From IMG/VR virus record IMGVR_UViG_3300033143_001536, positions 1-29,877 of that record: a DNA stretch of 29,877 bases, one strand, 5' to 3'. Of the stretch, positions 19,213 to 28,455 are shown one piece after another. The translations under genes and the position numbers were made by a program. The notes under the pieces are model-generated. The model made no database searches, was not told the DNA's origin, and worked only from the letters and a program-made list of their open reading frames with translations. How positions within the stretch are numbered: position 1 is the first letter of the stretch; each line of letters starts with the position of its first letter. The stretch comes from a virus.

Positions 19213-20085
19213 TTACTGCCCGAACTTAGCCATTCTTTCTTTGAGAATTGTTCGGGCTTCCTTGAGGGTTTTAACCTCTTCAACTTTTGGTGTCGCTGTA
19301 TCACCAGACGGAATCTTAGGGAGTGTTGTTTTCCCGTCAATATAGTTTTTGATTACCGCTTGGTCATAAGCCTCTTTCTTCTTTAATCCTTCTTCTACCA
19401 TTTTATTTACCGCCTTTGTGTCTGTGATATCGAGACTGTAAAGAGGATTTCCAACTCCGAAAAATTCAGCCAAGAACGATTGCTGGTCTTTGTCAACTTC
19501 TCGAAGAAGTGATTTAACTTCCCGTTCATAATTGACAACAGCTTTCTGGTTTTCTTCCTGAGCTTCAATCTCCCTTTCCTTCGCAAGAGTTTTGCCTTTT
19601 TCAGACTTCAGCTCAGATTCGAGCCTTGCAATCCGTTCCGATTCAGTTTCATCTTCGTACTGTTTGGCTTTTTCCTGTTCCTGCCAGTACGTTTCATACT
19701 TATCAAGCGTAGCGGCTTTCTTGATGAGGTCTTCGATATCACCAACATCTTTGATACGGCCTTTAAGTTCTGTACCGTCTTTCAGTAGTTCCTCTAAATC
19801 TTCAATAGATTCAACCTCATTGTTTTTGAGAATAGTCTGGAGCTTTTGTTCTGCCCCTCTCCATTCCTGCCAACGTGGGTCTTTATCCCAAGGAACCTTA
19901 TCGTCAGCGGGCGGGTCTGACTTATCATCGCCCTTATCCGATGGCGAGTCGGATTTATTATCGCCTTTATCGTCAGGTGGCGGAGCTGACACGTCATCGC
20001 CAATTTCACCCCTTTCGTTCATCAGGGGCATTAACAACATTTCTAACAGTGTTGGTTCCGAACCAACTTTTGCGGTTGTCTTCAT
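19213..20085 (-). CDS. Capsid scaffold protein, 290 aa
   Basis: A highly acidic, hydrophilic protein placed between portal and major capsid genes. Residues ~30-65 are a low-complexity D/K/S/P tract with repeated D-K-G-D and K-S-D units (DDKGDNKSDSPSDKGDDKSD). The middle is a long E/K/Q-rich coiled coil (ETESERIARLESELKSEKGKTLAKEREIE). The C-terminal helix is basic (KTLKEARTILKERMAKFG), as in scaffolds whose C-terminus contacts the capsid protein. AGGAGG precedes ATG at 20085. Its gene ends 11 bp before the capsid start. Scaffold function is inferred from composition and gene order, which agree well. Confidence 0.82.
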   Translation of the reverse strand: MKTTAKVGSEPTLLEMLLMPLMNERGEIGDDVSAPPPDDKGDNKSDSPSDKGDDKSDPPADDKVPWDKDPRWQEWRGAEQKLQTILKNNEVESIEDLEELLKDGTELKGRIKDVGDIEDLIKKAATLDKYETYWQEQEKAKQYEDETESERIARLESELKSEKGKTLAKEREIEAQEENQKAVVNYEREVKSLLREVDKDQQSFLAEFFGVGNPLYSLDITDTKAVNKMVEEGLKKKEAYDQAVIKNYIDGKTTLPKIPSGDTATPKVEEVKTLKEARTILKERMAKFGQ

Positions 20086-20135: not shown

Positions 20136-20267
20136 TCACTTTGTATTTACATAAATAGCTTTCTGTTGCTGTCTCGCTTGTCTCAAGGTCAATGGCCTCT
20201 TAGACTTCGCTTCCTTCGGACTAAAAACTTTATATCCGCCTTTAACTTTCCTTACCCGATACGGCAT
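20136..20267 (-). CDS. Basic micro-protein between portal and scaffold, 43 aa
   Basis: Starts at ATG 20267 with AGGGG upstream, inside the last codons of the portal gene (26-bp overlap), and ends at TGA 20136. The protein has the plan MPYRVRKVKGGYKVFSPK followed by a short basic tail with RPLTLRQARQQQKAIYVNTK. Small proteins of the form MP-Y-x-V-x-K-x-x-GG-Y-K-V with a Q-x-x-AIY-x-N end are common in phages and of unknown function. The recognisable pattern, good ribosome site and packing in the gap argue that it is real. Confidence 0.75.
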   Translation of the reverse strand: MPYRVRKVKGGYKVFSPKEAKSKRPLTLRQARQQQKAIYVNTK

Positions 20268-22242
20268 TCCCCTGCTCCTGTGCTTGCATCATTTGTTCCT
20301 GCATTTGCTGTTGTGCCAGTTTAGTATGGATACTTGTATGAGCCACCAATACTCCTTTCAAATCAGGCTCAAGCTGTGCAAATTCAGCCGAAAGAATGTA
20401 TCTCCTGTGAACCTCTGCGTGTATCTGGTGATTATCATATTCAAATAACGGGTCTTCAATAAGTGCTTCAAACTGACCTTCTTCATTCGGTTCTTCGTCA
20501 ACAACATAAATATTGGTAACATCGCCGCTTGCGACTTTTGCGTTCTCTCTTTCTGCACGGTCAATATCAACATTCAGTTTTTCCGCAAATCCGCTTAACC
20601 CAAGTTTGTTAAGATACTCCTGCCTTACTTCAGGGTCTTGCATATCCAAAACATTGTACTGTGCCAACTGAAGCATAAGCTCTCTTTTGCCTGCCATAGT
20701 GGTTGAAATCCCTGAATCGAGTTCCAGTCTTACATCTGTGTTTCCCCTTAAATCAGAACCCTTAAACGGGATTACATTATCTTTTTCACCCTTCCCCACT
20801 ACTTTTATCATACGGGTTTCGGTCATAACCGTTTTCGCAAGTAAGAGTCTCTTTTTGTAGGTGGTACTCATTGAGCGATTGAACCTGTCTAAATCGGGCG
20901 TGTGCGACCTTTCGGCGGTTTCTCTTAAAATGTCCACCATAATACCGGAGGCTTTCGAGGTCGGGGTCTTGCCTCTTAAAATGTTCTTCGGGTCGCCTGA
21001 CGAATCCTGTATCTGTACTTTGGCAATGGCTCTTTCTTCAAGAACCTGTTGCGGGAGCGGTGTTCCACTTTCAATTCGGGGCTCTTTACCACCTGACATT
21101 AAAGCGTCGTACTTCAGCACCAGAAATCCTTGCCCGCCATCACTGAGTTTCTTTAATCCAATATCGCCGGGTGTGATAACTCTTGGCCTGCCTAACCCTT
21201 TCCGGTTCATCTCAAGGGCTTGGTCAATTTCGTTAATCCGGTTCTGTGGACTGATTAAATCATTCACTCCAGCATCCGACCAGAATCTTCCAGGGATTCG
21301 GTTATAATGAAAATCGGTCAAACTGTAATACCACGAATCCTTTTCTGCCGGAATCGGCATTGAGTCAATATCCAAAAGCAGTGTATCTCCGCATACAGCA
21401 ATATATCTTCCTTCCGGGTACTTAATCGAGGGCTTTAATTCCATTTCCTTAAATAAGACAAGTTCCTGTTCTTCCAACTCAACTGAAGTTGATATTCCAT
21501 ACCCCTTCCACGGTGATACCTGACCCACTAATTTCATAAGCCTTTTCTGATAATCAACCGCTTTGAGGCTTTCCTGAACCACTTTTACATTGAAAGTATC
21601 TTCCGCCCATTCCCTCGGAACTAAAGTTTTAATTCCTATCCAGCGTTTGTCTCTAAGATTCTCACCTGTTTCATCCATGACAACATTGAAAGGGATTACA
21701 TTCTTGGTAACAACTTCACCAGTCTTTATTAATTTACCCTTTTTATCAAAGAACCATTTACCACTATTCATTTCGGGATAAGTTCTCAAAAATGCCGTGC
21801 CAGCCAAAGAGAGCCAATCACAAACCTTTTCCTTCTCACCCATTATCTCGTTATCATTTATGGTATCCATCCATGTAAGAAGTTTCGCTCCTAACTCGGA
21901 AGCCTGTTTGTCTTCTTTCTCATTTGTATTCGGGCGAACTTTAGGAATAAGGTTTTGCGTGAGAAACATAGACCTGACCGCCCTCACAAAATCCCGTATC
22001 TCGTTTGCTACCGGAGTTGGAATATATTGAGGAAGCTGTCTGCGCCTGAACGAACCCACCGACCTGACATACTCAATCCACTGCTCACCAATGTAGTAGA
22101 GGATATTCCGATAGATAATCCTGTCCTGCATGGTGCGGGCATAGTCCATATCGGTATTAAAAAGCTGGTCAACAATACCAACTAACTCTTTGGAATCTAC
22201 CTTTTCGTCTTTTTTGAATAACTTGTATTCTGAGAGTGACAT
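20242..22242 (-). CDS. Portal protein, 666 aa
   Basis: The dodecameric portal forms the DNA entry channel and docks terminase and adaptor. The size, location between terminase and scaffold, and sequence style fit: N-terminal YARTMQDRIIYRNILYYIGEQW, then IPTPVANEIRDFVRAVRSMFL and KVRPNTNEKEDKQASELGAKLL, which resemble the portal family of podoviruses whose proteins are ~650-750 residues. A core stretch (FHYNRIPGRFWSDAGVNDLISPQNRINEIDQALEMNRKGLGRPRV) resembles the clip and stem region. The C-terminus is Q/M-rich (AQQQMQEQMMQAQEQ), typical of portal barrel helices. ATG at 22242 has AAGG upstream. Both flanking micro-genes overlap its ends. Confidence 0.9.
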   Translation of the reverse strand: MSLSEYKLFKKDEKVDSKELVGIVDQLFNTDMDYARTMQDRIIYRNILYYIGEQWIEYVRSVGSFRRRQLPQYIPTPVANEIRDFVRAVRSMFLTQNLIPKVRPNTNEKEDKQASELGAKLLTWMDTINDNEIMGEKEKVCDWLSLAGTAFLRTYPEMNSGKWFFDKKGKLIKTGEVVTKNVIPFNVVMDETGENLRDKRWIGIKTLVPREWAEDTFNVKVVQESLKAVDYQKRLMKLVGQVSPWKGYGISTSVELEEQELVLFKEMELKPSIKYPEGRYIAVCGDTLLLDIDSMPIPAEKDSWYYSLTDFHYNRIPGRFWSDAGVNDLISPQNRINEIDQALEMNRKGLGRPRVITPGDIGLKKLSDGGQGFLVLKYDALMSGGKEPRIESGTPLPQQVLEERAIAKVQIQDSSGDPKNILRGKTPTSKASGIMVDILRETAERSHTPDLDRFNRSMSTTYKKRLLLAKTVMTETRMIKVVGKGEKDNVIPFKGSDLRGNTDVRLELDSGISTTMAGKRELMLQLAQYNVLDMQDPEVRQEYLNKLGLSGFAEKLNVDIDRAERENAKVASGDVTNIYVVDEEPNEEGQFEALIEDPLFEYDNHQIHAEVHRRYILSAEFAQLEPDLKGVLVAHTSIHTKLAQQQMQEQMMQAQEQGNAVSGKES

Positions 22243-22540: not shown

Positions 22541-24052
22541 TTACCAGTTTGCATATTCCCCTTCTCCTTCTTCAAATGATTTCCAGATTTCCTCTCTCTC
22601 AATCTTTGCCACGTCTGTTATGTCCTGCGGCGGAAGATTCTTTTCTGGAACAATAACAACATCCCCTATCGGTCTTGACATACAAATTAAGCACGCTTCA
22701 TCATAAACGTGGTCTTCGGCTTTTGTGTCAACATCTTCAATGTTGTTCTCATCTACCACCAGATTCGGGATTGTACGCTTAAACTGCATACAATTAGGGT
22801 AAATCTGCATCATCGGAACAGAACCGGGCTGATACCTTAATCTTTCGTGAAATTGTTTAATCTTCGCTAATCGTGTCGGGTCTCCCGGTGTTAATGGTAT
22901 TCCCAAATCCCTGAATATTTCTGCTGTTGACGGCCCCTGACCACCGCCTAAATAATTCGGACGTTTCTGAAAGCAGTCATGTCCGGCTAATCTCGTTTTA
23001 ACCCTACCCCAAACTCCCATGTTCTGCTCTTTAAGAATAATACTCTTGCCTACGTCCGTATCGGTCAGTCTTAAACCCTTATTCGGGGTTCCATTCCAGC
23101 CGTACCACTCATCAAACCGAAAAATCCTGTTATCTGCATCCACCCACCACCAGCCTATCGAAAACGGTGCGCCAAATCCCCAGTCATAAGTCATAATAAT
23201 CGGAGCATTCTCCGGTATGGGCTGTTTCGCTATCTCATCGCTTACAACGTGTATAGATTCGTTCCACTCCTGAAACGCCTGCCCTACAAATACATTCCAG
23301 TCCCCATCCCTGAACGCCTTCCTGATGGCCTCTGGGAGCGTATTAAGGGTATTCCAGTACGAAGCATCAATATACGGATTATCAGAGGCTTTAGATGGAA
23401 CATAATGAAACGTCTTTCTATAATCTATACTGTCCCCCTCTGGTTTCCACTCATCGCCAAATATCCCATCCATCCAAAGAGCCTTGCACCAGCCGTGGCC
23501 AATAGAACCCGGATTAGTACCTCCGATAAACGGACACTCCATGTCAGGAATCCCCGGCCATCTTAAACGAGTTCTTAAAAACGTAAACACATCGTAATCA
23601 TTTTTTGTAAGCTCATCCACCAGTATTGCGGCGAATTCCGAGCTGGCGTATTTAGCCGGATCGTCCAGATTTCTAAATACGATAACCCCATTCCCGTAAG
23701 CGGGATGTAATATAAAACACCTTCCATAATCCCTGTGGTCTGCGTAATTCTTTCCCATCCATTCTGGAAACTCACGGGCTATCTTCTGTAATTGACGGTC
23801 TTTCAACGAGGGATAGTTCTCACACGCCAACATGACGCTTACCCACGTTAATTTTTTTTCAAGGAACACTTTCATCAAGTATCGGGCGGCAAACCACCTT
23901 AACAGATACGACTTACCTCCTCCGAGAGCCCCGCCGTACAGAATGAACTTATACTTCTTTGAGTCCAACGCACGAACCAAGTCCAACTGACGAGGCTCAA
24001 ATCCAGCCATTTCCTTCGAGGTATCAAAATCGTATTTGGGTTGCTTCGCCAT
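22541..24052 (-). CDS. terL: Terminase large subunit, 503 aa
   Basis: The packaging motor. The ATPase part has a Walker A at residues 40-48 (GGALGGGKS, K47), a Walker B at 142-147 (AILVDE, catalytic E147) and a coupling-type GGTNPGS at 177-183. The RNase H-like nuclease part shows the expected acidic residues: MTYDWGF with D290, AGHDC with D359, and EDHVYDEA with D447 and D451. Length is usual for the family. The start ATG overlaps the stop of the upstream 117-residue gene at 24052. Upstream lies an HTH protein in the small-subunit position and a repeat array that could be its recognition site. Confidence 0.97.
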   Translation of the reverse strand: MAKQPKYDFDTSKEMAGFEPRQLDLVRALDSKKYKFILYGGALGGGKSYLLRWFAARYLMKVFLEKKLTWVSVMLACENYPSLKDRQLQKIAREFPEWMGKNYADHRDYGRCFILHPAYGNGVIVFRNLDDPAKYASSEFAAILVDELTKNDYDVFTFLRTRLRWPGIPDMECPFIGGTNPGSIGHGWCKALWMDGIFGDEWKPEGDSIDYRKTFHYVPSKASDNPYIDASYWNTLNTLPEAIRKAFRDGDWNVFVGQAFQEWNESIHVVSDEIAKQPIPENAPIIMTYDWGFGAPFSIGWWWVDADNRIFRFDEWYGWNGTPNKGLRLTDTDVGKSIILKEQNMGVWGRVKTRLAGHDCFQKRPNYLGGGQGPSTAEIFRDLGIPLTPGDPTRLAKIKQFHERLRYQPGSVPMMQIYPNCMQFKRTIPNLVVDENNIEDVDTKAEDHVYDEACLICMSRPIGDVVIVPEKNLPPQDITDVAKIEREEIWKSFEEGEGEYANW

Positions 24053-24405
24053 TAACGCCTGCCCAACTTTCTCATATTAACCCCCTGATAAGAACGCCCC
24101 TGTGGAAAAAGATGAAGCCCTAAAGCACCCGAATTGACTTTCCCGGTTCTTGGTGGCAAAAAACCAAGAGCATGCCCAGTCCTTGTACTGGTTTTCGCAG
24201 GAAGCATCCCAGATAATGCGTATTCGGGTGGCCAAGAACCCTTGGCGTCCGGCTCTACCTTATCCTTGAACGCCCTGCGATAATCATAAGAACGCCTTAA
24301 ATTGTCGGGGTCAGGGTCTAACTTCAAACGCTTAGCATGCCTGCCATACCAAGAACGAAACCCTAACTCATCTACCCCTCTCCTGCTATCTCTCAATGTC
24401 GGCAT
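24052..24405 (-). CDS. Phage protein upstream of terL, 117 aa
   Basis: Unnamed. Contains SYDYRRAFKDKVEPDAKGSWPPEYALSG, which resembles the Y-D-x-R...G-H-x-P-(S/D)-(E/T)-(F/Y) segment of small proteins often found near phage terminase genes. The rest is rich in R, G and P (FLPPRTGKVNSGALGLHLFPQG) without clear secondary structure. Its stop shares a base with the terL start (TAATG-like junction at 24052), indicating coupled translation. A virion or packaging accessory role is only inference. Confidence 0.75.
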   Translation of the reverse strand: MPTLRDSRRGVDELGFRSWYGRHAKRLKLDPDPDNLRRSYDYRRAFKDKVEPDAKGSWPPEYALSGMLPAKTSTRTGHALGFLPPRTGKVNSGALGLHLFPQGRSYQGVNMRKLGRR

Positions 24406-24490: not shown

Positions 24491-24667
24491 TCATGGACTT
24501 ATTTTTTCTCCCACTCTCCCACTCTCATCCATCCCTGAAAATTCAACAGCGTTCATCTCAATTACATACTGTGTCTCTATGTCCAGTGCTATGCGTCTCA
24601 ACATCATGGCTATGTCTGAGTTAGAGCAGTCGGCTTCACGTCTTAGTGCGTCAATGACCTTGTTCAT
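24491..24667 (-). CDS. Small helical protein, 58 aa
   Basis: ATG at 24667 overlaps the stop of the zinc-finger gene as ATGA and has GGAGG upstream; TGA ends it at 24491. The protein begins MNKVIDALRREADCSNSD, continues through IAMMLRRIALDIETQYVIEM, and ends in a polar tail. It looks like a short amphipathic helical protein; no family is recognised. The overlap and ribosome site support it. Confidence 0.7.
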   Translation of the reverse strand: MNKVIDALRREADCSNSDIAMMLRRIALDIETQYVIEMNAVEFSGMDESGRVGEKISP

Positions 24668-25128
24668 CCCCTTACCTCCATTCTCTGTTTGCCAATCCGG
24701 TGAGCGTCGTGTCCGCCATCAGCGTACTTTTCTGCAAGACAAGCGGCCTTTATCTCTTCGCGGTTTGCGGTACACTCCTCGATGTCTCGCATTGTCTCGG
24801 CGTGGATTCTCTTACACGCCTTTATTGTGTCCGCTCTGAACTGCGCCTTGAACGTGTCCCATGCCTTATTTCTGCGCCTGAATCCTGGCTCGGTGAGATC
24901 ATAATCAGGTGAGTAAGGGTTGTCTTTATCTGGATTATCTCGTACACTCTCAGGAACGCTAACTGGAACGCTAAGGGTTTCTGGAACGCTAACTTCCTTC
25001 TTAGCGTTCTCAACCCCACCTTCGGGAACGCTAAGGAACGCTAACTTTCTACACTTCCCGCTACAATACCGTGCTGACACTCGCTTTGCTTCAAATTCTC
25101 TGCCGCATACTTCGCATTGTTTTATCAT
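24664..25128 (-). CDS. Zinc-finger phage protein whose gene hosts the repeat array, 154 aa
   Basis: An N-terminal zinc-finger is seen in CEVCGREFEAKRVSARYCSGKC (C5, C8, C22, C26). Residues ~30-60 contain repeated SVPE/SVPV units (LSVPEGG, VSVPETLSVPVSVPESV), which are the translation of a DNA repeat rather than an obvious protein domain. The C-terminal half is helical and charged (FKAQFRADTIKACKRIHAETMRDIEECTANREEIKAACLAEKYADGGHDA). A GTG at 25152 would add eight residues, but ATG at 25128 has AGGGGG five bases upstream and is preferred. It lies between the HTH protein and the genes leading to terL, so a packaging accessory or DNA-binding role is possible. Confidence 0.78.
   Translation of the reverse strand: MIKQCEVCGREFEAKRVSARYCSGKCRKLAFLSVPEGGVENAKKEVSVPETLSVPVSVPESVRDNPDKDNPYSPDYDLTEPGFRRRNKAWDTFKAQFRADTIKACKRIHAETMRDIEECTANREEIKAACLAEKYADGGHDAHRIGKQRMEVRG
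24953..25044. repeat. Iteron-like array of GGAACGCTAA
   Basis: Five exact copies of GGAACGCTAA on the plus strand at 24953-24962, 24965-24974, 24983-24992, 25025-25034 and 25035-25044, and one inverted copy with one mismatch (TTAGCGTTCT) at 25001-25010. They lie inside the zinc-finger gene. Four direct copies are read in one codon phase, the one at 25035 in another, and the inverted copy as N-A-K, so the DNA itself appears to be what is repeated. The location between the small- and large-terminase-type genes suits a packaging initiation site; a replication origin or operator is also possible. Confidence 0.8.
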
Positions 25129-25151: not shown

Positions 25152-25607
25152 CTATCCATCCAACCCGTCGGAGATCGTGGCTTCTGGGCCATCCTCAGGC
25201 GTTACTTCCGGCGTAACGTCTATTACATTAGAGAATGACACCATCGGTTGGATGTTCTGTGTGCTAAGATCGCGCTCAAGTCGCTCTTTATCGTAAAGAA
25301 TTCCAACATCTACCATACCACGACGCATGATTAGCTTTTTGCGTTCCTCTTCGTCAAGAGACAGATACACCTTGACATCTTTTTCCTGTGCTGCTGCTAA
25401 AATGTCTGCCCTGTGCGCTTTGTAGTCTCCCACTGTGTTTGCTTTAATTCCATATCTATTGAGTACTTCGTGAACTGCCTGTCTACTTACCTTGACAGCA
25501 TCTGCTATTTCTGGAGGGGTTGCTGGTGTGGTGGTTGCTATTGCAAGGATAGCTGGCGTTTTGCTCGGTCTGCGGGTTTTCAGTGGCTGTGGTGATGTTT
25601 CTGCCAT
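25152..25607 (-). CDS. HTH protein in the small-terminase position, 151 aa
   Basis: Residues ~28-52 (ATPPEIADAVKVSRQAVHEVLNRYGI) form a helix-turn-helix with the usual small-hydrophobic spacing. The following region includes RADILAAAQEKDVKVYLSLDEEERKKLIMRRGMVDVGILYDKERLERDLST. The (V/A)-G-I-L-(Y/F)-D-K-x-R-L pattern is familiar from phage HTH proteins encoded just upstream of terminase genes, often annotated as small-terminase-like. Small terminases bind the packaging site and nick placement depends on them. The C-terminal tail is acidic. ATG at 25607 has AAGG upstream. DNA binding is well supported; small-terminase function is inference from position and the nearby repeat array. Confidence 0.75.
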   Translation of the reverse strand: MAETSPQPLKTRRPSKTPAILAIATTTPATPPEIADAVKVSRQAVHEVLNRYGIKANTVGDYKAHRADILAAAQEKDVKVYLSLDEEERKKLIMRRGMVDVGILYDKERLERDLSTQNIQPMVSFSNVIDVTPEVTPEDGPEATISDGLDG

Positions 25608-26085: not shown

Positions 26086-26096
26086 GTTTATAATTA

Positions 26097-26116
26097 TTTC
26101 GACAATTTCGTCGAAA
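26097..26116. promoter_or_regulatory. Operator-like palindrome, copy 1
   Basis: TTTCGAC-AATTTC-GTCGAAA has 7-bp perfect arms around a 6-bp centre. It lies about 12 bp upstream of the leftward -35 and just downstream of a plus-strand TATAAT, so a protein bound here could act on either direction. A half copy (TTCGACAATTTT) follows at 26118-26129. Confidence 0.65.
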
Positions 26117-26174
26117 GTTCGACAATTTTCGTTCTTAATGATTCTATATACTTATGTTGTTTTAGCCTATTTTC

Positions 26175-26191
26175 TCGACAATTTCGTCGAA
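26175..26191. promoter_or_regulatory. Operator-like palindrome, copy 2
   Basis: TCGACAATTTCGTCGAA is identical over 17 bases to 26099-26115, including the spacer, 76 bp away. It lies about 40 bp upstream of the rightward -35. Identity of both arms and centre suggests a conserved protein-binding site. Confidence 0.65.
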
Positions 26192-26230
26192 TGGTGGTTT
26201 TGTAAGTGTTTGTTTTTGTTATTATTCTAT

Positions 26231-28089: not shown

Positions 28090-28455
28090 ATGGAAGATTT
28101 AAGAGAGCGAAGAGCGAGATTCGTATATGATGGGGCAAGATTAGCGGCCCAAGCTGCGAATGCTCCCATAATTCCTGTATTGTGGGATGAGAGAGAAGAG
28201 CCGTTTAGGGCACAATTCAGAGAGGTAATTGACCGTCAATGTGGAGAACAAAGAAGTAAATCACCGGAGGAGCTACATGGCAGTTGGATGCAGTCATACT
28301 TTACAATGGGATGGGTGTATGGCGAGGAGTATAATCGTGAGAACAAGACACATCCAGATCTCGTGTCGTACGATGATTTGGGCAAATTAGAGCGTGATAA
28401 AGATGCTGTATTTGTTGCGCTGTGTGAAATTGCACGTCAATGGATTTGTGAGTAA
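28090..28455 (+). CDS. RyR-domain phage protein, 121 aa
   Basis: Residues ~60-118 match the RyR domain first described in ryanodine receptors and also found in bacterial and phage proteins: LHGSWMQSYFTMGWVYGEEYNR, KTHPDLVSYDDL, then KDAVFVALCEIARQW. The pattern W-x-x-x-(Y)-x-x-x-G-W-x-Y-G ... K-T-H-P-(D)-L-x-x-Y-(D/E)-x-L is diagnostic. The N-terminal 55 residues are charged and not recognised. In bacteria RyR domains occur in proteins of uncertain, often ligand- or protein-binding, role. AGGAGGT lies upstream of ATG at 28090, followed 13 bp after the stop by a ribbon-helix-helix gene. Confidence 0.87.
   Translation: MEDLRERRARFVYDGARLAAQAANAPIIPVLWDEREEPFRAQFREVIDRQCGEQRSKSPEELHGSWMQSYFTMGWVYGEEYNRENKTHPDLVSYDDLGKLERDKDAVFVALCEIARQWICE

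Follow-up and report, generated by a model that had tools for sequence, protein, structure and literature searches.

A TTAGCG repeat array conserved at the DNA level in zinc-ribbon genes beside diverse phage terminases: a candidate packaging-initiation site

In phage lambda cosB, with its R sites, and in SPP1 pac, several binding sites for the packaging-recognition protein lie beside the terminase genes. To our knowledge, neither the lambda nor the SPP1 sites are a portable word common to different small (TerS) and large (TerL) terminase subunits, and neither involves a zinc ribbon. The P22-type pac is a sequence of 22 bp inside the TerS gene, a gene that adjoins TerL, and SPP1 packaging involves multiple contact points (PMC9611059). 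In phage P1, pac lies inside pacA and comprises seven hexamer repeats (TGATCA/G), where synonymous mutation cut the wild-type titre about 9-fold (PMC10028697). The herpesvirus TerS proteins (UL28/UL56) are packaging-site-recognising terminase subunits that carry zinc fingers, and the binding of TerS to pac has been stressed to be weak or non-specific in vitro (PMC9611059). How pac phages recognize their own DNA is poorly understood.

Here we describe an array of a short word, TTAGCG followed by a variable tail, that lies in a zinc-ribbon gene near TerL; the array is common to many phages and is not peculiar to the phage of the window, by which we mean the whole 29,877-bp stretch analysed, a 29.9-kb virus fragment. 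As a candidate site it resembles P1 pac, which likewise is made of short repeats inside the coding region of a gene for packaging. It differs in that the P1 repeats include Dam sites and are part of the gene for the pacase, whereas TTAGCG and its variable tail occur in several reading phases of a distinct zinc-ribbon gene and in phages with unrelated terminases. With P22 it shares the intragenic location of the signal beside TerL, but the P22 site is a single asymmetric sequence, not an array, and has no zinc-ribbon gene. The likeness to lambda cosB and SPP1 is that of several sites next to the terminase genes, and the likeness to herpesvirus TerS would be that of a packaging-site-recognising protein that carries zinc fingers; no sequence relation is claimed. 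In mycobacteriophages (Charlievirus, Sbash), the gene for gp1 sits at the left end of the genome, immediately before TerL, and its small product has a similar ribbon. This placement fits a packaging role for such ribbons; the similarity, however, spans about 25-55 residues with an E value of about 1e-3 or weaker, and the actinobacterial ribbon genes tested, including mycobacteriophage gp1, contained no TTAGCG array.

The array of the window, at positions 24953-25044, consists of five exact copies of GGAACGCTAA and one inverted copy with a 9/10 match; the exact copies start on the plus strand at 24953, 24965, 24983, 25025 and 25035. It lies in a minus-strand gene (24664-25128, ATG at 25126-25128) for a zinc-ribbon protein of 154 amino acids, in the part that encodes a disordered linker. 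In gene orientation the word reads TTAGCGTTCC. Copy 1 (25035-25044, minus strand) is the single copy in phase 0, where it codes LAF of CRKLAF. Four copies, all on the minus strand, are in phase 1 and read SVP: copy 2 (25025-25034; LSVP), which abuts copy 1 directly, copy 3 (24983-24992; VSVP), copy 4 (24965-24974; LSVP) and copy 5 (24953-24962; VSVP). The inverted copy (25001-25010, plus strand) carries one mismatch, appears on the minus (gene) strand as AGAACGCTAA, and is in phase 2 (ENAK, read as E-NAK). These positions and phases confirm the first-pass annotation of the window, which had described five direct copies and one inverted 9/10 copy in two coding phases plus inverted. We found 11 matches to GGAACGCTAA with at most one mismatch in the window, compared with 1.26 expected, and none of 100 shuffles reached 11. 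Similarly, TTAGCG occurs six times in the array gene, against 0.51 expected from the record's own codon usage (p=0.0005). A search for at least three TTAGCG within 120 bp returned the array as the single cluster in the 29,877-bp record, in agreement with the earlier statement that there was no second one; the isolated TGAACGCTAA matches noted at 2710 and 11600 are present and are ordinary chance matches.

The 154-aa protein comprises a zinc ribbon (C-x2-C...C-x3-C, residues 5-26, encoded at 25051-25116, minus strand; C-x2-C ... YCSGKCRKLAF), a linker with the SVP repeats, and a helical C-terminal part (about residues 80-136; 24721-24891, minus strand) that is common only to L008, L032, L051, L059, L197 and L203. 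In the predicted structure, built from a 17-sequence alignment, pLDDT is about 95-97 in the ribbon, 95-98 in the helices and about 53-63 in the linker, and this low-confidence linker coincides exactly with the array-coding stretch. Because the array codes for a linker predicted to be disordered, it should impose little cost on the protein: on this model, the array is placed where the protein sequence matters least. Structure searches with the model of the zinc-ribbon protein returned nothing significant. Upstream of this gene lies the gene for an HTH protein of 151 amino acids in the small terminase position (25152-25607, minus strand), which is called TerS-like from its position only: it matched no TerS family, has no PHROG match and only a weak HTH match, and its model (pLDDT 54) is too poor to classify. 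Homologues occupy the equivalent position in L008, L059 and L203. TerL itself (22541-24052, minus strand; PHROG 979, Pfam Terminase_3) is followed by the portal protein gene (20242-22242, minus strand). The array gene does, as annotated, lie between the TerS-like HTH gene and TerL, but a gene for a 117-aa protein (24052-24405, minus strand) also intervenes before TerL.

To sample other arrays, we scanned 2.9 million viral contigs for two copies of TTAGCGTTCC within 30 bp. The scan returned 24 stretches, more than half of which carried a zinc-ribbon gene of the same type, giving about ten further phages; the remaining stretches were mostly peptide-level repeats or stray matches. We judged as unrelated to the ribbon arrays the pentapeptide-type repeats of L024 and L035, the peptide repeats within long proteins of L028, L034, L038 and L040, a palindrome (GTTAGCGTTCCGCTAAC) between HTH genes near an integrase in L026, and the matches in L030 and L031. 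A search unbiased with respect to the repeats, in which the query was only the ribbon, truncated ahead of the repeats, added arrays absent from the results of the DNA scan (L047, L054, L055, L062, L077, L170, L183, L197 and L203). The resulting set contains array-bearing zinc-ribbon genes from 24 phages, all metagenomic, in about 20 lineages (defined by distinct neighbours, not by a tree) with many TerL and TerS types. Isolate phage DNA contained no array, its one 19-base match being at chance level; isolate phage proteins matched at the level of the ribbon only, and plasmids gave four weak matches. We found no description of such an array in the open-access literature, which does not disprove its existence elsewhere. 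Ribbon genes without an array also occur between TerS and TerL (L048 and L189), and the gene must therefore have a role apart from the array. In L185 (1029-1482), a ribbon gene between a gene in the TerS position and TerL has no TTAGCG core and contains TTATCTGTAAC three times (GTTACAGATAA), a possible core variant.

The 24 genes together contain 101 copies of TTAGCG: 21 in phase 0, 65 in phase 1, 10 inverted in phase 2 and 5 inverted in phase 1. Four phases are free of stop codons for this word, and all four are occupied; 20 of the 24 genes use at least two phases, and nine use at least three. In a codon-usage simulation, 0.2-0.8 copies per gene were expected, compared with the 2-6 observed, and the excess was significant (p<=0.016) in 17 of the 18 loci tested. 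The tails that follow TTAGCG are TTCC, TTACA (L197), TAACA (L183, L203), TATCA (L062, L133), TGTCA (L077), TTTCA (L054, L134), TTGA (L170) and GGGACA (L047, L168). While the tail differs between phages, it agrees among copies of one gene that lie in different phases (p<1/5000): agreement across phases within a gene was 0.947 for direct copies, and 0.736 for all copies compared with 0.555 when shuffled (reached in 0 of 5000 shuffles). For example, the tail GGGACA of L047 and L168 is read both as LAG and as VSG. In L183 the entire array is inverted, on the opposite strand (VTL).

Close relatives of the window give the same picture. Among relatives whose contigs extend upstream of TerL, the nearest is L008, a 47-kb contig with a 114-bp end repeat and a TerL that is 92% identical. 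Its array contains the first four copies of the window, the inverted one included, in the same register, and lacks two, copies 4 and 5. Residues conserved between the window and L008 have the same codon in 17 of 21 cases within the array and in 17 of 44 cases in the remainder of the gene (p=0.0014); the figure for TerL is 60%. L203 has homologues of the window's HTH gene, ribbon gene and TerL (63% over 107 aa). Its array consists of three copies of TTAGCGTAACA, and the peptide has changed from SVP to SVT. Across the relatives, the peptide reads SVP, SVT, SVS, SVD, LAG/VSG or VTL while the DNA core is constant. The first-pass proposal that selection acts on the DNA, not on the peptide, is thus strongly supported by the comparison with the 23 other arrays: in the relatives the DNA core is kept as the peptide drifts, and the reverse case, a peptide kept with the DNA repeats lost, is contradicted. 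The four phases, the inversions, the shared tails and the drift of the L203 peptide therefore indicate selection on double-stranded DNA. We regard it as virtually certain that the array is maintained at this level, and a DNA-level function is close to shown.

The array gene lies within about 1.4 kb of TerL in 21 of the 24 loci; by their ORF lists, the TerL start is 1.2-2.4 kb from the array gene in L183, L168 and L203 (about 2.3 kb downstream in L203, where the contig is cut). Most array genes lie between TerS and TerL, and two lie after TerL (L051, L134). The neighbouring TerL types are PHROG 979, 675, 38, 2, 3717/2 and 5989, with others matched only weakly and that of L059 presumed from its position and a PHROG of unknown function; the TerS types are PHROG 51, 641, 309/3064 and 606, or the HTH type of the window. 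The C-termini of the ribbon proteins likewise fall into several unrelated groups, one of which co-occurs with different TerL types. The constant elements across these loci are the ribbon and the TTAGCG core. TerL relatives of the window in L010, L012 and L013 have neither the ribbon gene nor the array, and a different gene directly precedes TerL; TerL therefore does not need the array. In the six records searched, the TTAGCG cluster at the ribbon gene is the only one per record, and the 9-mer is nearly confined to the ribbon gene in 16 records. Like pac- and cos-type sites, then, the array is near the terminase genes, acts at the DNA level independently of coding, and is unique in the records searched. 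From this context, we infer that the array is probably a cis-acting site of packaging initiation. The first-pass annotation had suggested a packaging or replication site; its packaging half gains from the linkage to TerL across many terminase types, still by inference, and its replication half found no support. The contigs run through the array, with a single contig break that corresponds to a 127-bp assembly overlap: L022 and L037, which come from one sample, share exactly 127 bp ending at the outer repeat, and perhaps represent strains that differ beyond it. We considered a physical genome end at this point and rejected it, reading the break as an assembly junction because the overlap is exactly 127 bp.

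The operon position of the array would also fit an operator, bound by the zinc-ribbon or the HTH protein and controlling the terminase and late genes by autoregulation. In its favour, the DNA-level repeats coincide with a gene for a protein of DNA-binding type, and the array heads the late operon, about 1 kb from the divergent gene boundary. We nevertheless consider it unlikely, as the array lies 75-220 nt inside the coding region, not at a promoter, and tracks TerL through very different operon arrangements, including positions after TerL (L051, L134). That the same ribbon and core occur with different C-termini, TerS and TerL could suggest a mobile or recombinational element, in which ribbon and array form a cassette or an exchange boundary for terminase modules and the repeats serve recombination; the two contigs of one sample that break exactly at the outer repeat would agree with this. 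Their 127-bp overlap, however, resembles an assembler k-mer length, a 10-bp word is short for homologous exchange, and tails that are phage-specific yet consistent across phases are unexpected for recombination sites shared between phages, all of which make this reading quite improbable. We give still less credence to a replication origin of the lambda O kind, at which the zinc-ribbon protein would be the initiator: although direct iterons do lie within the gene for a putative DNA-binding protein, their constant neighbour is the terminase rather than replication genes, and the extremes of cumulative GC skew do not fall consistently at the array.

The data leave little room for a peptide- or RNA-level cause. 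Repeats in the mRNA could be bound by a regulator or form hairpins, and direct and inverted copies can indeed pair in the window (z=-2.4) and in L008 (z=-4.3). Among the arrays folded, however, pairing was confined to these two, with ordinary folding in L032, L065, L047 and L077 (z -0.4 to -0.6), and the RNA hairpin was rejected; moreover, the L183 array is on the opposite strand only, and the window has no Rfam match. An RNA-level element is thus very improbable. The least credible reading is that the protein needs the SVP repeats and that the DNA repeats follow from this or from slippage. The SVP-type phase does hold 65 of the 101 copies, but the four phases, the inverted copies and the changed peptide of L203 speak against it, and the codon-usage null, the conserved-codon comparison and the cross-phase tails, which by themselves largely refute it, led us to reject a protein-level repeat for the ribbon arrays. 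By contrast, L024, L028 and L035 from the same DNA scan look like plain peptide repeats.

If the array does serve to initiate packaging, a protein that recognizes the sequence and occupies several copies simultaneously could mark the phage DNA in the replicated concatemer, and the bound protein could then recruit TerL for the first cut. Our guess is that the reader would be the zinc-ribbon protein itself, perhaps together with TerS; we favour it because it is the only constant partner of the array. Binding by the 151-residue HTH protein, as the first-pass annotation had envisaged, seems less likely than was assumed: the same TTAGCGTTCC adjoins several unrelated TerS types, and the zinc-ribbon protein is therefore the better candidate. 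The tail, which is uniform in any one phage but varies from phage to phage, might be the phage-specific part of the address. We put forward these roles of ribbon and tail only tentatively. In L133 (288-630), the third cysteine of the ribbon is replaced (RFDTPAC), yet five intact copies of TTAGCGTATCA are present, which counts against the ribbon as a necessary reader; TerS or a host protein is possible. A broader and equally speculative hypothesis is that of a portable address system for packaging, in which a zinc-ribbon adaptor binds an array located in the very gene that encodes it. Reader and address would then always travel together: the ribbon would read the constant TTAGCG core, the tail would keep co-infecting relatives apart, and the interchangeable C-terminus would plug into the particular TerS and TerL of its phage.

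The occurrence of the same TTAGCG with a phage-specific tail in otherwise different phages suggests an address label that directs the packaging motor to the DNA to be packed. A word with a constant and a phage-specific half would supply concrete targets and a candidate reader, testable by binding and by recoding, and would help to predict from sequence where uncultured phages have their packaging sites. The arrays also show that DNA sites can be embedded in codons for a disordered linker.

Several minor observations concern the same loci and their surroundings. In L007 (3004-3948), L052 and L060, a RecA-like protein carries the same type of zinc ribbon as an N-terminal fusion, and in L007 (MW202692) the fusion gene lies just upstream of TerL. 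The TerL genes of L054 (907-2844), L047 (3512-5902) and L051 (1798-3984) contain intein-like insertions. In L042 (6640-6930), upstream of a nuclease-TerS-TerL operon, an intergenic region contains 8 copies of a G[CT]GTTCC word, two of which read TTAGCGTTCCA; none of 14 loci related by TerL has this cluster, and the array is not conserved among them. Elsewhere in the window, a 33-bp tandem repeat occurs three times (19896-20001) in a structural gene (19213-20085, minus strand), and a 121-aa protein encoded at 28090-28455 on the plus strand has a Pfam RyR domain (E 2.5e-9). Finally, the region between the divergent operons of the window (26096-26195) contains copies of the near-palindromic TCGACAATTTCGTCGAA and variants of it, and resembles a repressor operator.
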